Source of the DNA: a bacterium
GTDB lineage: Bacteria > Lindowbacteria > 2-12-FULL-62-27
NCBI GenBank assembly: GCA_016202645.1
Contig: JACQOF010000085.1
Coordinates: forward strand, 1 to 30,642
Reading direction: 5' to 3'
Length of the DNA: 30,642 nt
In this document: piece by piece, positions 9,406 to 16,628 of the stretch
Position numbering within the stretch: position 1 is the first letter of the stretch
Layout: each line of letters starts with the position of its first letter
Translations under genes and position numbers: made by a program
Notes under the pieces: generated by a model
The model's database searches: none
What the model saw: the letters and a program-made list of their open reading frames with translations, nothing else
What the model was told of the DNA's origin: nothing

Positions 9406-9434
9406 GTGACACCGCCGCCCGCATGATTTATGAT
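9406..9434 (+). promoter_or_regulatory. tracrRNA promoter
   Basis: GTGACA (9406-9411, one mismatch to TTGACA), exactly 17 nt, then TATGAT (9429-9434, one mismatch to TATAAT). The predicted transcription start, about 7 nt after the -10 element, is at about 9441, that is at the first base or two of the anti-repeat. This makes it the natural promoter of a tracrRNA and possibly of the cas operon. Confidence 0.7.
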
Positions 9435-9439
9435 GCGGC

Positions 9440-9557
9440 TTCAAGGGTGAAAGAAGCCCGTCCTCCTTGGGCCTCTGCGCGCAAGCGTACGCCACCGGTG
9501 CACCGGCGGTGAGGATCAAACGGGCGAGGGCGTGTGCCCTCCGGCTTGCCGGAGGGC
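9440..9557 (+). ncRNA. tracrRNA (3' end approximate)
   Basis: Bases 9440-9453 (TTCAAGGGTGAAAG) are identical to the plus-strand right end of the CRISPR repeat. They are therefore perfectly complementary to the 5' 14 nt of the repeat when the array is transcribed from the minus strand. Downstream lie stems expected of a type II tracrRNA: a nexus-like GCCC (9456-9459)/GGGC (9469-9472), CACCG/CGGTG (9493-9511) including a CCGGTGCACCGG palindrome, GAGGGC/GCCCTC (9526-9541), and a 10-bp GC stem (9536-9545/9548-9557). The segment just upstream, GATTTATGATGCGGC, weakly resembles the other end of the repeat, so a longer processed precursor with a bulge is possible. No U-tract marks the end; the RNA may read into cas9. 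Confidence 0.82.
9536..9557 (+). promoter_or_regulatory. Hairpin sequestering the cas9 Shine-Dalgarno
   Basis: GCCCTCCGGC (9536-9545) and GCCGGAGGGC (9548-9557) form a perfect 10-bp stem. The right arm contains GGAGGG (9551-9556), the only Shine-Dalgarno candidate for the cas9 ATG at 9567. The left arm can instead pair with GAGGGC at 9526-9531 (stem 9526-9541), which would free the ribosome site, so the two structures exclude each other. Confidence 0.5.
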
Positions 9558-9566
9558 CGGACTTAT

Positions 9567-12563
9567 ATGAACTTCAACGAATGGTTTAATGGAAATCGTC
9601 TGGGATTGGATTTTGGAATCAAAGGCGTCGGTATCGCCGTCGTCCAGGGGCGGCGTGTCCTCTTTGCCCAGAGTCTTTTGAACCTTGCACATCCCAGCCT
9701 TGAAGACAGGCGCGGTCATCGCCGAAGCCGCCGGACCCACCGCAGCCGGCAAAGGCGTCTGAAAGAATTCAGGAAACACTGTATAGAGCACGGACTTCTG
9801 GATCCTGTTTTTCTCGCCCACACCAGCGACGCCCCCCATCCTTTGATCGCCGGCCGTCATACGCCTGATCCGAGATGGGCCGATTTGCAGGCGGTCCGGG
9901 AACGTCTGCGTAACGGGCATGGATCGCCCGAAGATTTCGTCCGTTTCTGCTACGATCTTTGCCGGCGGCGCGGATACACCTATGATTCCGTCGAGGACAT
10001 GGTGTTAAAGGCGGTTCGACTTTATAGGGGCAAGCAACCTACTCCAGCAAAGGTGGAGGAAAAACTCCTTGAAGAATTTTCAGACGCTTGCATGCCGCAG
10101 GACATCGTCAAGCATATCCTCGAAATTTTAGATGACAATGATTATGGATCCCTAATCGCGGTCGGCTCCAGTCTGCGCGGCGCGCTGGATCAAGCTGTCC
10201 ACCGCGATGCTGGAAGTAGAAAGTCAAGAACCAAACGTCCACGGGTTGCTGTCGAGAAAGAACTGCAAGATGTTTGCGATAAGAATCCGGTGTTTGCCGG
10301 ACATCAGGCCGCCATACTCAAAATTATAAATTGGCAACCGCGTCCCATGCGAATCGACAATCGCGCTTCAACCATGTGGAAATGCTCATGGTGCGAAGAA
10401 CGCTGGCGTCCGAGACTAAAAAATCTGGCTGAGGATAAAGACCCTGAAATTCGGGATGGCCTTCTCATGGAGGCGATTCTCAATCTCCGGCACAAGGCGG
10501 CCAGAGACGCCGCCGAATCCGCCAGACCATGGTGGGCCAAAAATATTCAGGATGCCGTCAAAAAGAAGGGGAATATTCCAACGGAGGAAATCCGCCAACA
10601 GGTGTTGAAAGGCTTAAAAGAAATTGCCCCCACTGCCGGCCGAAAAGATGTCCTGTCCAACATCAGAGACATTTTCAAGGAATATAAATTGGCCGACAAA
10701 GAAGTCGAAAAATTCGCCGACCTGCTCCGGCCGCGCGCCAAAGAGGAAGGACGTTCGAAGCGATGCCGCGAATGCATAAAACTGGGCGCGAAAGCGAAAA
10801 GTCTGGAGGATTATCTTCGGATCAGAGAAATGGTCATGAACCGGAAAAAATCAAAGCAGAAGGCCGTCGGAATGGAGGCATGGGTGGAGCGATGCGTGAA
10901 CGCCATTCGCCGGACGCTGTTTTACAAGGATCCCAAAGGCAAACTGCGGTTTCGATATGGTTCTTTGCAAACAATTTCATTGGAAGTCCCCCGATACGAT
11001 CCGGAAGAGGATAAATCGTCCAGGCAAAGGGAGGAAGACAACCGTCAGCGGCGAGCATGGCCGTTTCTCAAACAACGATGGTGGCAGCAGGGCGGGCGGG
11101 ACGGAAAGAAGGCCGCCTGCATTTATTGCGGCGAGGCATCATTCAATCCAAGGGAGGAAACGCTCTCCGACGGCTCAATCAAATATTCGCTTCCCGCCGG
11201 CTTTCAACGAGAACATATTTTCCCGCGCGGCGGGTCGTACAACGGCCAGGACTTGCAGATCAACCTGGTCGTGGCCTGCGAAAAATGCAATGACGCGAAG
11301 GGAGAGAAAACGCCTTTTGTGTGGAAAGACACCATCCCGAATGGCTGGGACAAATTTAAGGAAAGGGTAAAATCCTCCAATCTTACGGCGCCGACCAAGG
11401 AGCTTCTTTTGAGCGAGTTGGCGACATTCCCCGATCCTCTCGATCTTCTGGCGAAGACCGGCGCGGTCAGAAAAGTATTGGCTGACAGGCTCAAGACGTT
11501 GTTCGCCGATGCCGGCATTGACTTGACCGATCAGAAGATAGTCTTCGTCGACGGATGGACAACCCAACTGGCCAGACGCTCTTGGAATTCCGTTGTCGAC
11601 GCGAAGGGAAACAAAATCGAAAATTTTCCGAGGAAGGACCGAAGCGATCCGGCCAATCATGCGCAGGACGCCGTATTGGCTGCCGCCGTCCCTCCGCATT
11701 ATCTCCGAAGACGGGGTGAGTGGCTGGTCAGGGAACGAACCGATATTTTATCGACGGGTCGGCCTGCGCCGGATTGGGCGCCCCATTGGCCCGAGTACTG
11801 CGCCAAAACAAAGCGCCGGCCGTTAAGCATGGATCTGACGCGTCGCCGATATTCATGGCATGCGCAACAGTGGGATGATTCGATTTTTCGGCGGGATAAA
11901 GATGAGAAATTCCTCATCCGGAAAAAACTGGATAAGGTCAACCCGGATCGTTTACCGCCGAGTTTGGGATGGGCCAAAGAACAGATTCTTCGCGTCCGTG
12001 GCGAGATTGGAAAGATAAAAAAGCGCACCGACATAAGGGGCAGGGAGAAAGAGGAAGAGATCGAGAAAATTTACACGTCCGTCCTCGATACTGCCGGTAG
12101 AACGGTGCGTGGGCTGACTGTCTATGCCGATGATGTCGGAGCAACCAACTCCACTGAAGCGCCGCCCGGTTCAAAGCGATGGCGGAAAACACTGACGAGT
12201 CGGCCATGGGTCGGCTTGCGGCAGAATTCAGAGGATCAATCCATTCAAATTGTTCTTCCTTCCGCCCCGGATGCCGGGCCGCCCGCGGACATGTGGATTT
12301 TGAGGCTGGGCACCATCGTATGGTTGAAGCAGGACATTCAGAGCATGATCGACAAAAAAAGGCATATCTGGAAACGGGGATGGTATCGACTGACCAAAAT
12401 CGCCGGCGATGGGGCGGCCATCACTGTTGAACCCTGCGATCAGCCTCTGCCCTTTGTAATAAAAGGCAAAAAAAAGGAAGATCGAGACTTGAGCCTTCGC
12501 GGCGAAAATTTAAAGCTTCTTCGATATCCAGTAGAGGTATCATCCCAGCCTTCCACCGCGTAA
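9567..12563 (+). CDS. cas9: Cas9 endonuclease, compact, zinc-ribbon HNH (type II-C2-like)
   Basis: 998 aa from the ATG at 9567 (GGAGGG 11 nt upstream; GTG 9534 lies inside the leader hairpin and is rejected). RuvC-I: LGLDFGIKGVG with D15. An arginine-rich bridge helix at 48-71 contains RRSRR. RuvC-II: TISLEVPRYD with E473. HNH at about 516-590: CIYC (C518, C521), REHIFPRG with catalytic-type H550, N566, and CEKCNDAKG (C571, C574), a zinc-ribbon HNH like IscB. RuvC-III: NHAQDAVLAAAV with H698 and D701. The presumed REC region has two more CxxC pairs (C273/C276, C400/C403). About 290 residues follow RuvC-III and should hold the WED and PAM-interacting parts. All catalytic residues are intact. 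Base composition looks more AT-rich than the flanking chromosomal genes. Neighbours tracrRNA, cas1, cas2, cas4 and an array confirm the call. Confidence 0.96.
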   Translation: MNFNEWFNGNRLGLDFGIKGVGIAVVQGRRVLFAQSLLNLAHPSLEDRRGHRRSRRTHRSRQRRLKEFRKHCIEHGLLDPVFLAHTSDAPHPLIAGRHTPDPRWADLQAVRERLRNGHGSPEDFVRFCYDLCRRRGYTYDSVEDMVLKAVRLYRGKQPTPAKVEEKLLEEFSDACMPQDIVKHILEILDDNDYGSLIAVGSSLRGALDQAVHRDAGSRKSRTKRPRVAVEKELQDVCDKNPVFAGHQAAILKIINWQPRPMRIDNRASTMWKCSWCEERWRPRLKNLAEDKDPEIRDGLLMEAILNLRHKAARDAAESARPWWAKNIQDAVKKKGNIPTEEIRQQVLKGLKEIAPTAGRKDVLSNIRDIFKEYKLADKEVEKFADLLRPRAKEEGRSKRCRECIKLGAKAKSLEDYLRIREMVMNRKKSKQKAVGMEAWVERCVNAIRRTLFYKDPKGKLRFRYGSLQTISLEVPRYDPEEDKSSRQREEDNRQRRAWPFLKQRWWQQGGRDGKKAACIYCGEASFNPREETLSDGSIKYSLPAGFQREHIFPRGGSYNGQDLQINLVVACEKCNDAKGEKTPFVWKDTIPNGWDKFKERVKSSNLTAPTKELLLSELATFPDPLDLLAKTGAVRKVLADRLKTLFADAGIDLTDQKIVFVDGWTTQLARRSWNSVVDAKGNKIENFPRKDRSDPANHAQDAVLAAAVPPHYLRRRGEWLVRERTDILSTGRPAPDWAPHWPEYCAKTKRRPLSMDLTRRRYSWHAQQWDDSIFRRDKDEKFLIRKKLDKVNPDRLPPSLGWAKEQILRVRGEIGKIKKRTDIRGREKEEEIEKIYTSVLDTAGRTVRGLTVYADDVGATNSTEAPPGSKRWRKTLTSRPWVGLRQNSEDQSIQIVLPSAPDAGPPADMWILRLGTIVWLKQDIQSMIDKKRHIWKRGWYRLTKIAGDGAAITVEPCDQPLPFVIKGKKKEDRDLSLRGENLKLLRYPVEVSSQPSTA

Positions 12564-12661
12564 ACTTGCTTTTGTAAAATCCGGCGGGTAAAGTTTATGC
12601 GAGGGTGCGATGAGAACAGGGATGGATATATGATGATGCAATCGAATTGGGAGGTAGCCGC

Positions 12662-12946
12662 ATGAAAAAGGAAATGACCGTCGAAGTTCCATTCGGGGAC
12701 GAAGGATATTCTGTTTTGACTCACTTGAGAAATCTTTTCGTACATCCTCAGTGCGAAGGTATGCCCCATAACGACCTTTCACTTTCTGAAACCACAGGAA
12801 TTCGAATTCCACGGTTGAGGAAGATTCTGGGGGAGATGGAAAGAATTGGATTTGTCACAATCGAACGGTCAGGGAACTATCGATGGTTTATATGGATTGA
12901 GGGGGAGGGCCTCCAAGCGTGTAAGAAAATGATGAAAGCTGGATAG
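12662..12946 (+). CDS. Small winged-helix DNA-binding-type protein in the cas operon
   Basis: 94 aa, ATG at 12662 with a strong GGGAGG 7 nt upstream. The core reads as a winged helix: NDLSLSETTGIRIPRLRKIL (helix-turn-helix with recognition helix), EMERIGFVTIERSGNYRWFIWIEGEG (helix then beta wing), and a final basic helix ACKKMMKAG. This resembles MarR/ArsR-type or replication-associated wHTH folds, but I do not recognise a named family. It follows cas9 after 98 nt and is followed after 10 nt by the TIR/NDT-like gene. It could regulate the locus or tether the neighbouring effector to DNA; both are inference. Its composition is more AT-rich than cas1-cas2-cas4. Confidence 0.8.
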   Translation: MKKEMTVEVPFGDEGYSVLTHLRNLFVHPQCEGMPHNDLSLSETTGIRIPRLRKILGEMERIGFVTIERSGNYRWFIWIEGEGLQACKKMMKAG

Positions 12947-12956
12947 GCGCAACAAA

Positions 12957-13409
12957 TTGGCAAAGACTGTTTTTATCGCGCACGACTATTATGAACGGGG
13001 AGGCAGAAAAAGGAAGTACCGACGTCTCATATCCATAGCCCTCAAACATACCGGCTTTCGTCCCACCTATGCCGATCACGCCATCCAAAACATTTCGATA
13101 TTGAAGGAGATTATTCGGAAAATTAGAAACGCGTCATTCTGTATTTTGGACGTCACGGGGCGCAAAAAAAGTACGTCGCTGAATCTGAATGTTCTTCTGG
13201 AACTCGGGATGGCCTACGGCGCCGGCAGGAAGGCCTTTCTGATCTACGAAAAGCGGACTGTCCCTCCATCAGTCATCAAGGAGCTATCTGATTTGGGTAA
13301 TGAAGTGCGATTCCCCTACCACGGCCTTAACGCGCTTCCGATCCTGATCAGAAAAACCATTATCGACGTTGTAAGGAGAAGCCATCCCCGGAGGATGGCG
13401 AGCCTCTGA
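12957..13409 (+). CDS. TIR-like / nucleoside deoxyribosyltransferase-like nucleotide-binding protein in the cas operon
   Basis: 150 aa, TTG start at 12957; a stop at 12933-12935 rules out anything much further upstream. Seen: an opening strand KTVFIAHDY, a basic helix RKRKYRRLISIAL, a central strand FCILDVTG (D65), and NLNVLLELGMAYGAGRKAFLIY (N78, E82). The pattern of a D-x-T-G strand followed by N-V-x-x-E-L-G and a K-x-x-F/V-L-I strand is that of the nucleoside 2-deoxyribosyltransferase/TIR-like superfamily, where the Glu is catalytic for glycosidic bond cleavage. Such domains serve as NAD+ or nucleotide hydrolases in anti-phage effectors, but also as housekeeping enzymes. Its stop overlaps the next start by one base (TGATG), so translation is coupled. 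Function in this locus is unknown; a nucleotide-degrading effector is one hypothesis. Confidence 0.8.
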   Translation: MAKTVFIAHDYYERGGRKRKYRRLISIALKHTGFRPTYADHAIQNISILKEIIRKIRNASFCILDVTGRKKSTSLNLNVLLELGMAYGAGRKAFLIYEKRTVPPSVIKELSDLGNEVRFPYHGLNALPILIRKTIIDVVRRSHPRRMASL

Positions 13410-13738
13410 TGCGTATTTCAACCGTTAGGACGGAGGCGCCGGTTGCGGAAAACGTGACGGTCACCGACGATACGATCAGCGTGAATTTAAGCGACGGTCG
13501 GACGATATCCGCGCCGTTGGGATGGTTTCCGAGACTCATCCATGGAACGCAAAAAGAACGGAACAATTGGCGGCTGATCGGCAGGGGCCACGGCCTCCAT
13601 TGGGAAGACCTAGATGAGGATATCAGCGTCGAGAATCTGATTCTGGGGCAGGCCTCGGGTGAAAGCCAAACATCGTTTGAAAATTGGTTGTCGACCAGAA
13701 AGTCCGGTCATACGATTTCCACCAGACACCGCCGGTGA
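13409..13738 (+). CDS. DUF2442 domain protein in the cas operon
   Basis: 109 aa, ATG at 13409 overlapping the preceding stop by one base. The sequence fits DUF2442 closely: DDTISVNLSDGRTISAPLGW, FPRLIHGTQKERNNWRLIG, and GLHWEDLDEDISVENLI. A 30-residue polar tail rich in Ser and Arg follows. DUF2442 proteins often pair with DUF4160 proteins in small modules that look like toxin-antitoxin pairs; no DUF4160 partner is visible here. The gene ends 55 nt before the cas1 ATG and is translationally coupled to the TIR/NDT-like gene, so it may bind or control that protein (inference). Confidence 0.85.
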   Translation: MRISTVRTEAPVAENVTVTDDTISVNLSDGRTISAPLGWFPRLIHGTQKERNNWRLIGRGHGLHWEDLDEDISVENLILGQASGESQTSFENWLSTRKSGHTISTRHRR

Positions 13739-14972: not shown

Positions 14973-15308
14973 ATGCCTGAAACGCGATGTCTTGTCGTCT
15001 ACGACATAGAGGAAGACCGGGCGCGGACGAAGATCAGCGAGGCGTGCCTGGATTTCGGGCTGGAGAGAATTCAGATGAGCGCGTTTTGGGGACTCCTGTC
15101 GCGCACGCGTCAGCGCGAACTCTACCACCGGATCAAGCGGCTTCTGGGGGACGGATACGGGCGTTTCTTCATTCAGCCCATCTGCGCGCACGACGAGGAC
15201 ACGCGGTTCATTCACGAGCAGGGCGACCCCGACGACCGGGCGCTCCTGCGGTCGCTCATCGAGGAACAAAAGACGCGGGACCGGTCGCGCGTCCTGAAAT
15301 TCGAATGA
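14973..15308 (+). CDS. cas2: Cas2
   Basis: 111 aa. The first strand is CLVVYDIEEDRARTKISEAC with the conserved Asp after YD, then LDFGLERIQMSAFWGLLS, which is the Cas2 ferredoxin-fold pattern, and a strand GRFFIQPIC. It is the structural partner of Cas1 in spacer integration. ATG at 14973 follows the cas1 stop by 3 nt, and its stop overlaps the cas4 ATG by four bases (ATGA), so the three adaptation genes are translationally linked. Slightly longer than many Cas2 proteins because of a charged C-terminal tail. Confidence 0.95.
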   Translation: MPETRCLVVYDIEEDRARTKISEACLDFGLERIQMSAFWGLLSRTRQRELYHRIKRLLGDGYGRFFIQPICAHDEDTRFIHEQGDPDDRALLRSLIEEQKTRDRSRVLKFE

Positions 15309-15895
15309 TGCCGGTCGCTTCGGACATCGTCACGGTCAGCGACTTGAAACAGTTCGCCTTTTGCCCGCGCATCCCTTATTTTTCTAGAGTCATGCCGATT
15401 CGGCCGCCGGCCACGGAGCTGATGGAACGCGGTCAGCGGTTGGAGGAGGAGTTTCGACGGCTGGAGGTACGGCGGAGTTTGAGCCGATACGGGTGGGACC
15501 GGGCAAAAAGACATTTTGGCGTATATGCGATGAGCGAATCGATCGGCATCGCCGGGCGGATCGATCTGGCGCTCGAACGCGAGGATGCCGTTGCCATCAT
15601 TGACGTGAAGGCAAGCGGGGGGTTCGTTGGAGACAATCACCGGATGCAGGCGGCGGCGTATCAGATTCTGGCGGCCGAGCATTTCAAGAAACCGTGTCTG
15701 TGCGCGTTCATGTATTTTCTAGATCGCGGATGTGTGGAACGCCTGGAGTTGGACGCCGCATGGACCGAACGACTCCGGCGGGCGATAGAAGGCATTCGAG
15801 CCATGTCGGCAAGTCATGATTTCCCGCCCGCGACGGCGTATCGCAACGCCTGCGAGCAATGCGAATATCGCAATTTCTGCGGCGATGTATTCTGA
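15305..15895 (+). CDS. cas4: Cas4 nuclease, iron-sulfur type
   Basis: 196 aa, ATG at 15305 overlapping cas2. Features of a PD-(D/E)XK Cas4: FAFCPRIPYF near the N-terminus with the first cluster Cys, GIAGRIDLALE (core Asp), VAIIDVKAS (the D-x-K motif), a QAAAYQILAA helix, and a C-terminal NACEQCEYRNFCGD with three Cys that complete a four-Cys iron-sulfur site. Cas4 trims prespacers and selects for PAM during adaptation. It is absent from ordinary II-A and II-C loci but occurs in II-B and in the cas4-bearing II-C variant, so its presence is diagnostic here. It is the last cas gene before the array. Confidence 0.95.
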   Translation: MMPVASDIVTVSDLKQFAFCPRIPYFSRVMPIRPPATELMERGQRLEEEFRRLEVRRSLSRYGWDRAKRHFGVYAMSESIGIAGRIDLALEREDAVAIIDVKASGGFVGDNHRMQAAAYQILAAEHFKKPCLCAFMYFLDRGCVERLELDAAWTERLRRAIEGIRAMSASHDFPPATAYRNACEQCEYRNFCGDVF

Positions 15896-15994
15896 TTTCG
15901 CAAACCACCCGACAAATCTCGCAAGCTTGACGCTTGCGAAATTTGCCTCACTCATTCCGAACCCAACTCACACAGCTTCATAACCGCGGAGCGG
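15896..15994. other. cas4-array spacer region with hairpin
   Basis: 99 nt between cas4 and the first repeat. TCGCAAGC and GCTTGCGA form an 8-bp stem with a 5-nt loop at about 15918-15938, extended after one mismatch by AAAT/ATTT. It could terminate both the cas transcript and the opposing crRNA transcript. Just before repeat 1, GAGCGG plus the first repeat bases makes GAGCGGGA, which is complementary to TCCCGCTC inside the repeat. In conventional terms this is the array-flanking end without the degenerate repeat, hence the likely integration (leader) side. Confidence 0.5.
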
Positions 15995-15995
15995 G

Positions 15996-16023
15996 ATTGT
16001 AGTCCCGCTCAAAAAAAATTCAA
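15996..16023 (-). promoter_or_regulatory. Repeat 1-embedded promoter
   Basis: On the minus strand TTGAAT (16023-16018), 16 nt, then TACAAT (16001-15996). Repeat 1 is next to the cas4 side, so this copy would fire out of the array toward cas4 and yield no guide. The same arrangement of -10-like TACAAT at the repeat end is known from Neisseria and Campylobacter II-C arrays. Confidence 0.6.
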
Positions 16024-16066
16024 GGGTGAAAGTTCTCGTGGACCGTCGATATGATCGAGTCGCTGG

Positions 16067-16094
16067 ATTGTAGTCCCGCTCAAAAAAAATTCAA
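16067..16094 (-). promoter_or_regulatory. Repeat 2-embedded promoter driving spacer 1 crRNA
   Basis: TTGAAT (16094-16089), 16 nt, TACAAT (16072-16067) on the minus strand. Transcription would start about 6 nt into spacer 1 and run through repeat 1, giving a short crRNA with a guide of about 28 nt and a complete tracr-pairing tag. Confidence 0.65.
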
Positions 16095-16138
16095 GGGTGA
16101 AAGCGCTACTGGCAAGTTTCGAGTCCTCCCCGCTACTG

Positions 16139-16165
16139 ATTGTAGTCCCGCTCCAAAAAATTCAG
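16139..16165 (-). promoter_or_regulatory. Degenerate-repeat promoter driving spacer 2 crRNA
   Basis: The degenerate third repeat keeps TACAAT (16144-16139) and offers CTGAAT (16165-16160) 15 nt upstream, while the CTTTCACCC part of the repeat is gone. It could therefore still start the crRNA of spacer 2 although it can no longer pair with the tracrRNA. Confidence 0.55.
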
Positions 16166-16178
16166 CGGACGCCGGAAT

Positions 16179-16207
16179 TTGACACGCGCCCTTTCTTGCG
16201 TTAGAAT
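16179..16207 (+). promoter_or_regulatory. Near-consensus promoter of the metal efflux operon
   Basis: TTGACA (16179-16184, perfect -35), exactly 17 nt, TAGAAT (16202-16207, one mismatch). The predicted start at about 16214 is 3 nt before the GTG of the Cys-rich gene, so the message may be nearly leaderless. The promoter starts 14 nt after the end of the degenerate CRISPR repeat and is divergent from the array promoters. Confidence 0.7.
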
Positions 16208-16216
16208 ACAGCCGCT

Positions 16217-16519
16217 GTGAAAAGAGCGGTTGTGATGCTGGTAGCGCTTTTCTGCATGATCTTGGCCCCGCAGGCGGTTCCGGCCTGCGACATGCCCTGC
16301 TGTCCGGGTTCGGACTGCTCGCCGCAGATGACGTGCGCGCCGGACGCTTCGGCGGCGGCGGTTCTTCCGGCGGCGTCGATTGAAACGGCTGTCAGCGCCG
16401 CAGCGGAAATTACGGACGTCTCGGCGCCTTCAACGGTTGCCGTCAGGCCAGTCTCGAAACTCGATTTTCCTGAACCTCTCGCCAGACTTTTCCTCACCCT
16501 CCGATCTCTTCTGATCTGA
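16217..16519 (+). CDS. Small secreted Cys-rich protein, first gene of metal efflux operon
   Basis: 100 aa from GTG 16217; an in-frame ATG at 16235 with AAAGAG upstream is an alternative, but it loses the Lys-Arg of the signal peptide. Residues 1-22 form a signal peptide (MKRAVVMLVALFCMILAPQA). It is followed by a cluster of Cys and Met, CDMPCCPGSDCSPQMTC, likely to bind soft metal ions, then an Ala/Val-rich linker and a short hydrophobic C-terminus LARLFLTLRSLLI. I do not recognise a named family; similar small Cys-rich leaders occur ahead of cus-type efflux genes. It lies 109 nt before the TolC-like gene and probably shares its transcript. A periplasmic metal-binding or sensing role is inferred. 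Confidence 0.65.
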   Translation: MKRAVVMLVALFCMILAPQAVPACDMPCCPGSDCSPQMTCAPDASAAAVLPAASIETAVSAAAEITDVSAPSTVAVRPVSKLDFPEPLARLFLTLRSLLI

Positions 16520-16533
16520 CCCCCCCTCTCTAA

Positions 16534-16551
16534 CCGGACAAATCTGTCCGG
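16534..16551. repeat. Inverted repeat between Cys-rich gene and cusC-like gene
   Basis: CCGGACA (16534-16540) and TGTCCGG (16545-16551) make a perfect 7-bp stem with an AATC loop. Only a weak T-run follows, so this may be an attenuator, an operator for a metal regulator or a leaky terminator. A second short stem, TCCCC/GGGGA, lies at about 16590-16602. Confidence 0.4.
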
Positions 16552-16628
16552 ATTTCCAGACACGCGGATATCTACATCACCTCTTCCCCATTGGGGAGAA
16601 GATGTTCAATTTCTCAGGAGGGCTTCAG

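Follow-up and report, generated by a model that had tools for sequence, protein, structure and literature searches.

The stretch of DNA analyzed here (30,642 nt; hereafter the window) carries a CRISPR-Cas locus in which a predicted tracrRNA, cas9, cas1, cas2 and cas4 are encoded on the plus strand, next to a two-spacer CRISPR array (15995–16173). Read in crRNA sense, the array has the order degenerate repeat, spacer A, full repeat, spacer B, full repeat, leader, end of cas4. The features of the locus are as follows:

9406–9434, plus: predicted tracrRNA promoter, GTGACA-N17-TATGAT, seventh best site in the window, kept in the related locus L019
9440–9453, plus: tracrRNA anti-repeat TTCAAGGGTGAAAG, complementary at 14 of 14 positions to nt 1–14 of the minus-sense repeat
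9440–9556, plus: predicted tracrRNA (folding and co-folding), about 117 nt, with a GC-rich terminal hairpin just upstream of cas9
9534–12563, plus: cas9, type II-D, with ATG 9567 as the probable start codon
13659–14969, plus: cas1 (PF01867, 6e-69; II-D Cas1 clade, SH-aLRT 100)
14973–15308, plus: cas2 (PF09827, 8e-14)
15308–15895, plus: cas4 (TIGR00372, 4e-27)
15989–16004 (whole 15989–16010), minus: leader-repeat junction palindrome, arms GAGCGGGA-CTACAA-TCCCGCTC, perfect 8-bp stem
15995–16032, minus: full repeat 2, at the leader end, last in transcription
15996–16023, minus: putative embedded promoter of the last repeat (pattern scan)
16033–16065, minus: spacer B, 33 nt, behind a full-strength repeat promoter
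16066–16103, minus: full repeat 1
16067–16094, minus: putative embedded promoter for spacer B, TTGAAT-N16-TACAAT, predicted start about 16060
16104–16137, minus: spacer A, 34 nt, the older spacer
16138–16173, minus: degenerate first repeat, which keeps its final 16 nt, GAGCGGGACTACAATC, unchanged (its alignment scores 7.9 sd above shuffles)
16139–16165, minus: weakened putative embedded promoter for spacer A, CTGAAT-N15-TACAAT (score 9.7, p = 0.014)
16179–16207, plus: predicted promoter of the divergent gene at 16217, TTGACA-N17-TAGAAT, best site in the window

The best family match of the window Cas9 was NCBIfam Cas9d, NF049971 (222 bits, E = 2e-65, below the 375-bit cut-off of the family). 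In a quick tree of 50 Cas9s, built without bootstrap, it grouped with those of six other loci, L011, L019, L052, L053, L054 and L084 (seven II-D rows, SH-aLRT 99). A Cas1 tree of the same kind, which took in no type I or V Cas1, placed all six II-D sequences (the window and the five relatives having cas1) in one group with SH-aLRT 100. The window falls outside the 43-row II-C group in both trees. The sequence-only reading had compared the array with those of type II-C; membership of that type was rejected because of the position of Cas9 and Cas1 and the presence of cas4. Judged from the two trees, which agree, the locus is of type II-D (Cas9d, cas1-cas2-cas4) as defined in PMC12669027; the features of this type found here are the Cas9 grouping, the Cas1 branch, the cas1-cas2-cas4 adaptation module and a predicted tracrRNA with its promoter and hairpins. 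Another locus considered for type II-D, L086, was rejected, as its Cas9 and Cas1 lie outside the clade. A tblastn search with the Cas9 gave no match among plasmids and phages and none in viral contigs, and a search by sequence against solved structures gave no match. The genome encodes an RNase III gene. It also has a second Cas9 locus of II-C type (L020, contig C122), with six repeats that end in TTACACT and carry a promoter-like TTGCTT-N16-TACACT. Between cas9 and cas1 of the window (12647–13738) lie a small ORF and genes for a CAP12-like TIR domain protein and a DUF2442 protein, all of them also present in L019 and possibly an accessory defence unit.

In type II systems, the tracrRNA pairs with the 5' part of the repeat, the part that comes after the guide. 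The anti-repeat TTCAAGGGTGAAAG pairs at all 14 positions with the beginning of the minus-sense repeat (nt 1–14, CTTTCACCCTTGAA), so the crRNA sense is the minus strand, and it was therefore correct to propose that the -35 element overlaps the tracr-pairing TTGAA: the hexamer TTGAAT shares these five bases with the 14-bp duplex. The plus strand was rejected as crRNA sense, since this would place the anti-repeat pairing at the repeat's 3' end; that strand is ordinary in its promoter match (p = 0.38). The predicted tracrRNA start, 9441 plus or minus 2, lies at the first base of the anti-repeat, and co-folding gave a 14-bp crRNA:tracrRNA duplex together with three tracr hairpins. The predicted tracrRNA is 79% identical to that of L011. 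The anti-repeat TTCAAGGGTGAAAG is also present in L019, and L011 and L052 have the equivalent GCTAGAGTGAAAG. The joint between anti-repeat and tracrRNA body (9446–9459) has a motif, TGAAAGAAGCCC, common to L011, L019, L052, L054 and L084, which is usable as a II-D signature. An Rfam scan of the window gave no match at gathering thresholds.

A pattern scan of positions 15850–16600 found TTGAAT-N16-TACAAT on the minus strand at 16094–16067 and 16023–15996, that is, in both full repeats and in crRNA sense, as had been claimed; promoter-like sites in this region numbered four, against 0.2 expected in shuffles. With position weights taken as approximate E. coli frequencies, which may not be those of the host, the repeat site scored 14.4 and ranked third and fourth among all sites on both strands (61 kb of strand). 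Relative to 37-nt pieces of real loci the match had p = 0.0008 to 0.002, that is, above about 99.8% of the background. The two full repeats are copies of one another, so this amounts to one independent event. The 200 nt that precede the array in crRNA sense contain no site scoring above 7.8, and no other promoter for the array was predicted in a scan of both strands of the window. The predicted promoter of the divergent gene faces the opposite way and leaves no space for an array promoter outside the repeats. A match to GTGAAA-N18-TATGAT at 16026 on the plus strand was dismissed as chance because its -10 element sits inside a spacer. A run of eight T occurs in the crRNA-sense repeat just past the tracr-pairing part (16010–16017) and is missing in L011 and L052.

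The -10 hexamer had been described as ending one base short of the spacer, which holds if the repeat is counted as 38 nt, but the extra C that makes up this length is probably chance, because in L019, whose array has the same repeat, the unit is 37 nt long and TACAAT forms its very end. Starts predicted near 16060 and 16132 would give guides of 28 and 29 nt, in agreement with the expected length. An independent start in every spacer was only partly upheld: spacer B stands behind a full repeat, but spacer A is preceded only by the weakened degenerate copy, which lacks the tracr-pairing half. Since the promoter of this first repeat is weakened, expression of spacer A may be poor. The last repeat has its promoter directed out of the array, into the leader, where it would make no crRNA. 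Searched against 50,697 phage records, the two spacers gave chance-level matches only (E = 3).

Degenerate first repeats are not peculiar to the window. In the clear cases among promoter-type arrays, those of the window, L062, L065, L087, L102 and L110, 5' bases are lost and all bases of the -10 element are retained; the first repeat of L095 has one change in the hexamer, and that of L063 is nearly intact. Such retention would not be needed by an array driven from its leader, and the need of the oldest spacer for a promoter explains the retained half. Another published reading of the same pattern is that mutations are favoured in the tracr-pairing half: in a survey of II-C arrays, first-repeat mutations fell mostly within the first 15 nt and were read as suppressing unwanted crRNA (PMC12080349).

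Within type II-D, conservation of the motif is uneven. The locus L019, from the same family as the window, has an identical 37-nt repeat in other surroundings, where a co-directional gene lies upstream of the array and again no outside promoter is predicted; a promoter carried along with the repeat would give this picture. In L011 and L052, TACAAT is retained, the -35 position reads TAGCCT (score 9.6, p = 0.015) and there is no extended -10. The proposed conservation of TTGAAT and TACAAT among relatives therefore stands for TACAAT in two array lineages (window and L019; L011 and L052) and for TTGAAT in the first of these, but fails for L053, L054 and L084, which have neither. On this sequence comparison the promoter prediction fits one II-D lineage well and a second one weakly, and it does not extend to the others.

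The same loci differ in how their parts are combined. The window and L019 have a common repeat, anti-repeat, tracr promoter and cas1 (92%), yet the identity between their Cas9s is 28%. For L011 and L052 the figures are 83% for cas1 and 30% for Cas9, and the Cas9s of the window and L011 are 55% identical. The tracr body switches just past GTGAAAGAAGCCC and follows Cas9, and the anti-repeat follows the array. Judging by these identities, Cas9–tracr cassettes are swapped two-by-two among the window, L019, L011 and L052.

Outside the II-D clade, 22 non-redundant type II repeats from Nitrospirota and other bacteria, mostly II-C, were compared; they had passed an 80% identity filter, which removes relatedness only in part, and their orientation was taken from the pairing with the anti-repeat and its G-U asymmetry, the promoter being left out of account. 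TANNNT stands at the 3' end in 18 of the 22 repeats and at the opposite end in two. In those 18, TTG occurs at a spacing of N16 in ten, N17 in two and N15 in one, and at no other spacing within 10 to 21; the further TTGs at N22 (one) and N23 (nine) are largely due to the conserved repeat start. When the sequence preceding the -10 was shuffled, the observed -35 score was never reached in 2000 trials. The match exceeded 95% of the background for 18/22 repeats in crRNA sense and for 0/22 reversed, with L069 and L111, whose orientation by G-U asymmetry contradicts homology, both counting against the promoter. The hexamer varies in this set (TATAAT, TACACT, TAAAAT, TATACT) with T1, A2 and T6 constant, and the succession of fixed and variable positions (T, A, variable, A, variable, T) is, as far as sequence can tell, that of a -10 element. 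L055 (105–342) has a type II repeat with the full consensus TTGACA-N16-TATAAT ending at the last base of the repeat, which is a good positive control. Repeats that hold both a putative -35 and a putative -10, the former in the half that pairs with the tracrRNA, thus appear to be common in II-C-like arrays. Because II-C repeats place TTG at the same position, the use of one sequence for both jobs, pointed out for this array in the sequence-only reading, is not special to it.

The junction of leader and last repeat carries a palindrome that starts in the leader and extends into the repeat. A perfect palindrome of 8 to 11 bp is found at this junction in the window, L019, L011 and L052 (two array lineages). 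The longest at leader ends outside the II-D clade has 7 bp, and the longest among 38 internal repeats of II-D arrays has 8 bp. At the same junction, L084 carries another hairpin, of 14 bp. The palindrome perhaps marks the site of spacer integration or the crRNA 3' end; a role as terminator was rejected, as no T-run follows it on either strand.

Taken together, we consider it likely that these repeats carry embedded sigma70 promoters, and that a mechanism known from II-C arrays thereby extends to part of type II-D. The array would be read on the minus strand, towards cas4. In each full repeat, nucleotides 1–14 would serve the crRNA of the preceding spacer by pairing with the tracrRNA, and nucleotides 10–37 would act as a sigma70-type promoter from which a new transcript begins about 6 nt into the following spacer. 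Transcription would then set the crRNA 5' end, and the 3' end alone would need trimming or RNase III. We infer the use of the repeat promoter by RNA polymerase, the start sites and the making of the 3' ends.

The promoter match could instead be a by-product of two other constraints, with TACAAT kept because Cas1-Cas2 would read the leader-side repeat end, which is ATTGTAG on the plus strand, and TTGAA kept for tracr pairing. In the window, L019, L011 and L052, TACAAT does track the Cas1/array lineage and not that of Cas9, the -35 position of L011 and L052 differs as their anti-repeat does, and the junction palindrome overlaps the TACAAT end. However, L053, L054 and L084 have adaptation genes or arrays without TACAAT, first repeats retain it although they are distant from the leader, and beyond that clade its variation, around the fixed T1, A2 and T6, is of the kind seen in -10 elements. 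The occurrence of TTG at N16 in many lineages would also be left unexplained, and we regard a mere by-product as unlikely.

We give a smaller chance to a route like that of type II-A, in which transcription entering from outside would yield one long pre-crRNA for RNase III to cut at its duplex with the tracrRNA. The RNase III gene of the genome would suit such a route, as would the co-directional genes that end upstream of the array in L011 and L019, but the gene upstream of the window's array is divergent, the adjoining 200 nt hold no predicted minus-strand promoter, and the crRNA:tracrRNA duplex is only 14 bp. Slimmer still is the prospect that the array is nearly silent or decaying, with few acquisitions and a weakened first promoter: there are two spacers only, both unmatched among the phage records, and the first repeat is degenerate, yet the reading frames of cas9, cas1, cas2 and cas4 are intact and the anti-repeat match is perfect.

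If bacterial II-D arrays do use the promoters in their repeats, the crRNA 5' end is fixed by transcription and not by cutting, and a single repeat would be a compact promoter plus guide scaffold. Repeat-by-repeat starts, a tracrRNA starting exactly at the anti-repeat and a duplex of about 14 bp would together make RNase III dispensable. That part of type II-D makes its crRNAs in this way, without pre-crRNA processing and with each repeat starting its own transcript, is a tentative extension that we hold to be possible and somewhat doubtful. If true, it could bear on the function of II-D in archaea: archaeal II-D hosts are without RNase III, and another RNase or Cas9d itself has been suggested for crRNA making (PMC12669027, the 2025 classification). 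Archaeal II-D repeats could then be inspected for an archaeal equivalent of the repeat promoter. The surprise is limited by the fact that the repeat-promoter mechanism has been known from II-C since 2013.

In C. jejuni, crRNAs start at position five of each spacer, with the -10 at the repeat end (PMC3656092); starts within each spacer are likewise cited for N. meningitidis in PMC7038990. For II-C arrays at large, a promoter in every repeat and the entry of new spacers at the last one have been described (PMC12080349). The likeness to N. meningitidis and C. jejuni arrays that had been pointed out is thus supported by mapped starts (PMC3656092 for C. jejuni) and by the wider II-C statement (PMC7038990, PMC12080349). 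For type II-D, a Cas9d array was reported as transcribed from environmental RNA-seq, with its starts unmapped (PMC9755519, PMC11706934, PMC12669027), and these papers describe no repeat promoter, within a search conducted mostly outside subscription journals.

Overall, the window resembles the II-C arrays of C. jejuni (PMC3656092), N. meningitidis and C. cellulolyticum (both PMC7038990), which carry a promoter in every repeat, in having a -10 in the last bases of the repeat, a predicted start within the spacer, a crRNA read towards the end where new spacers enter and a degenerate first repeat. Unlike those arrays, it has a Cas9 and a Cas1 of the II-D clade together with cas4, and its tracr pairing covers 14 bp, whereas nearly the whole repeat is paired in II-C arrays. 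Its predicted promoter consists of a -35 and a -10, whereas an extended -10 has been reported from C. jejuni and C. cellulolyticum. The type II-C repeats of Flavobacterium, with TTG about 35 bp upstream of each spacer, likewise encode a promoter motif, of the Bacteroidetes type (PMC10309648), whereas that of the window is the sigma70-like TTGAAT-N16-TACAAT. With the described type II-D/Cas9d systems (PMC9755519, PMC11706934, PMC12669027) the window shares Cas9d homology, a tracrRNA and the cas1-cas2-cas4 module.
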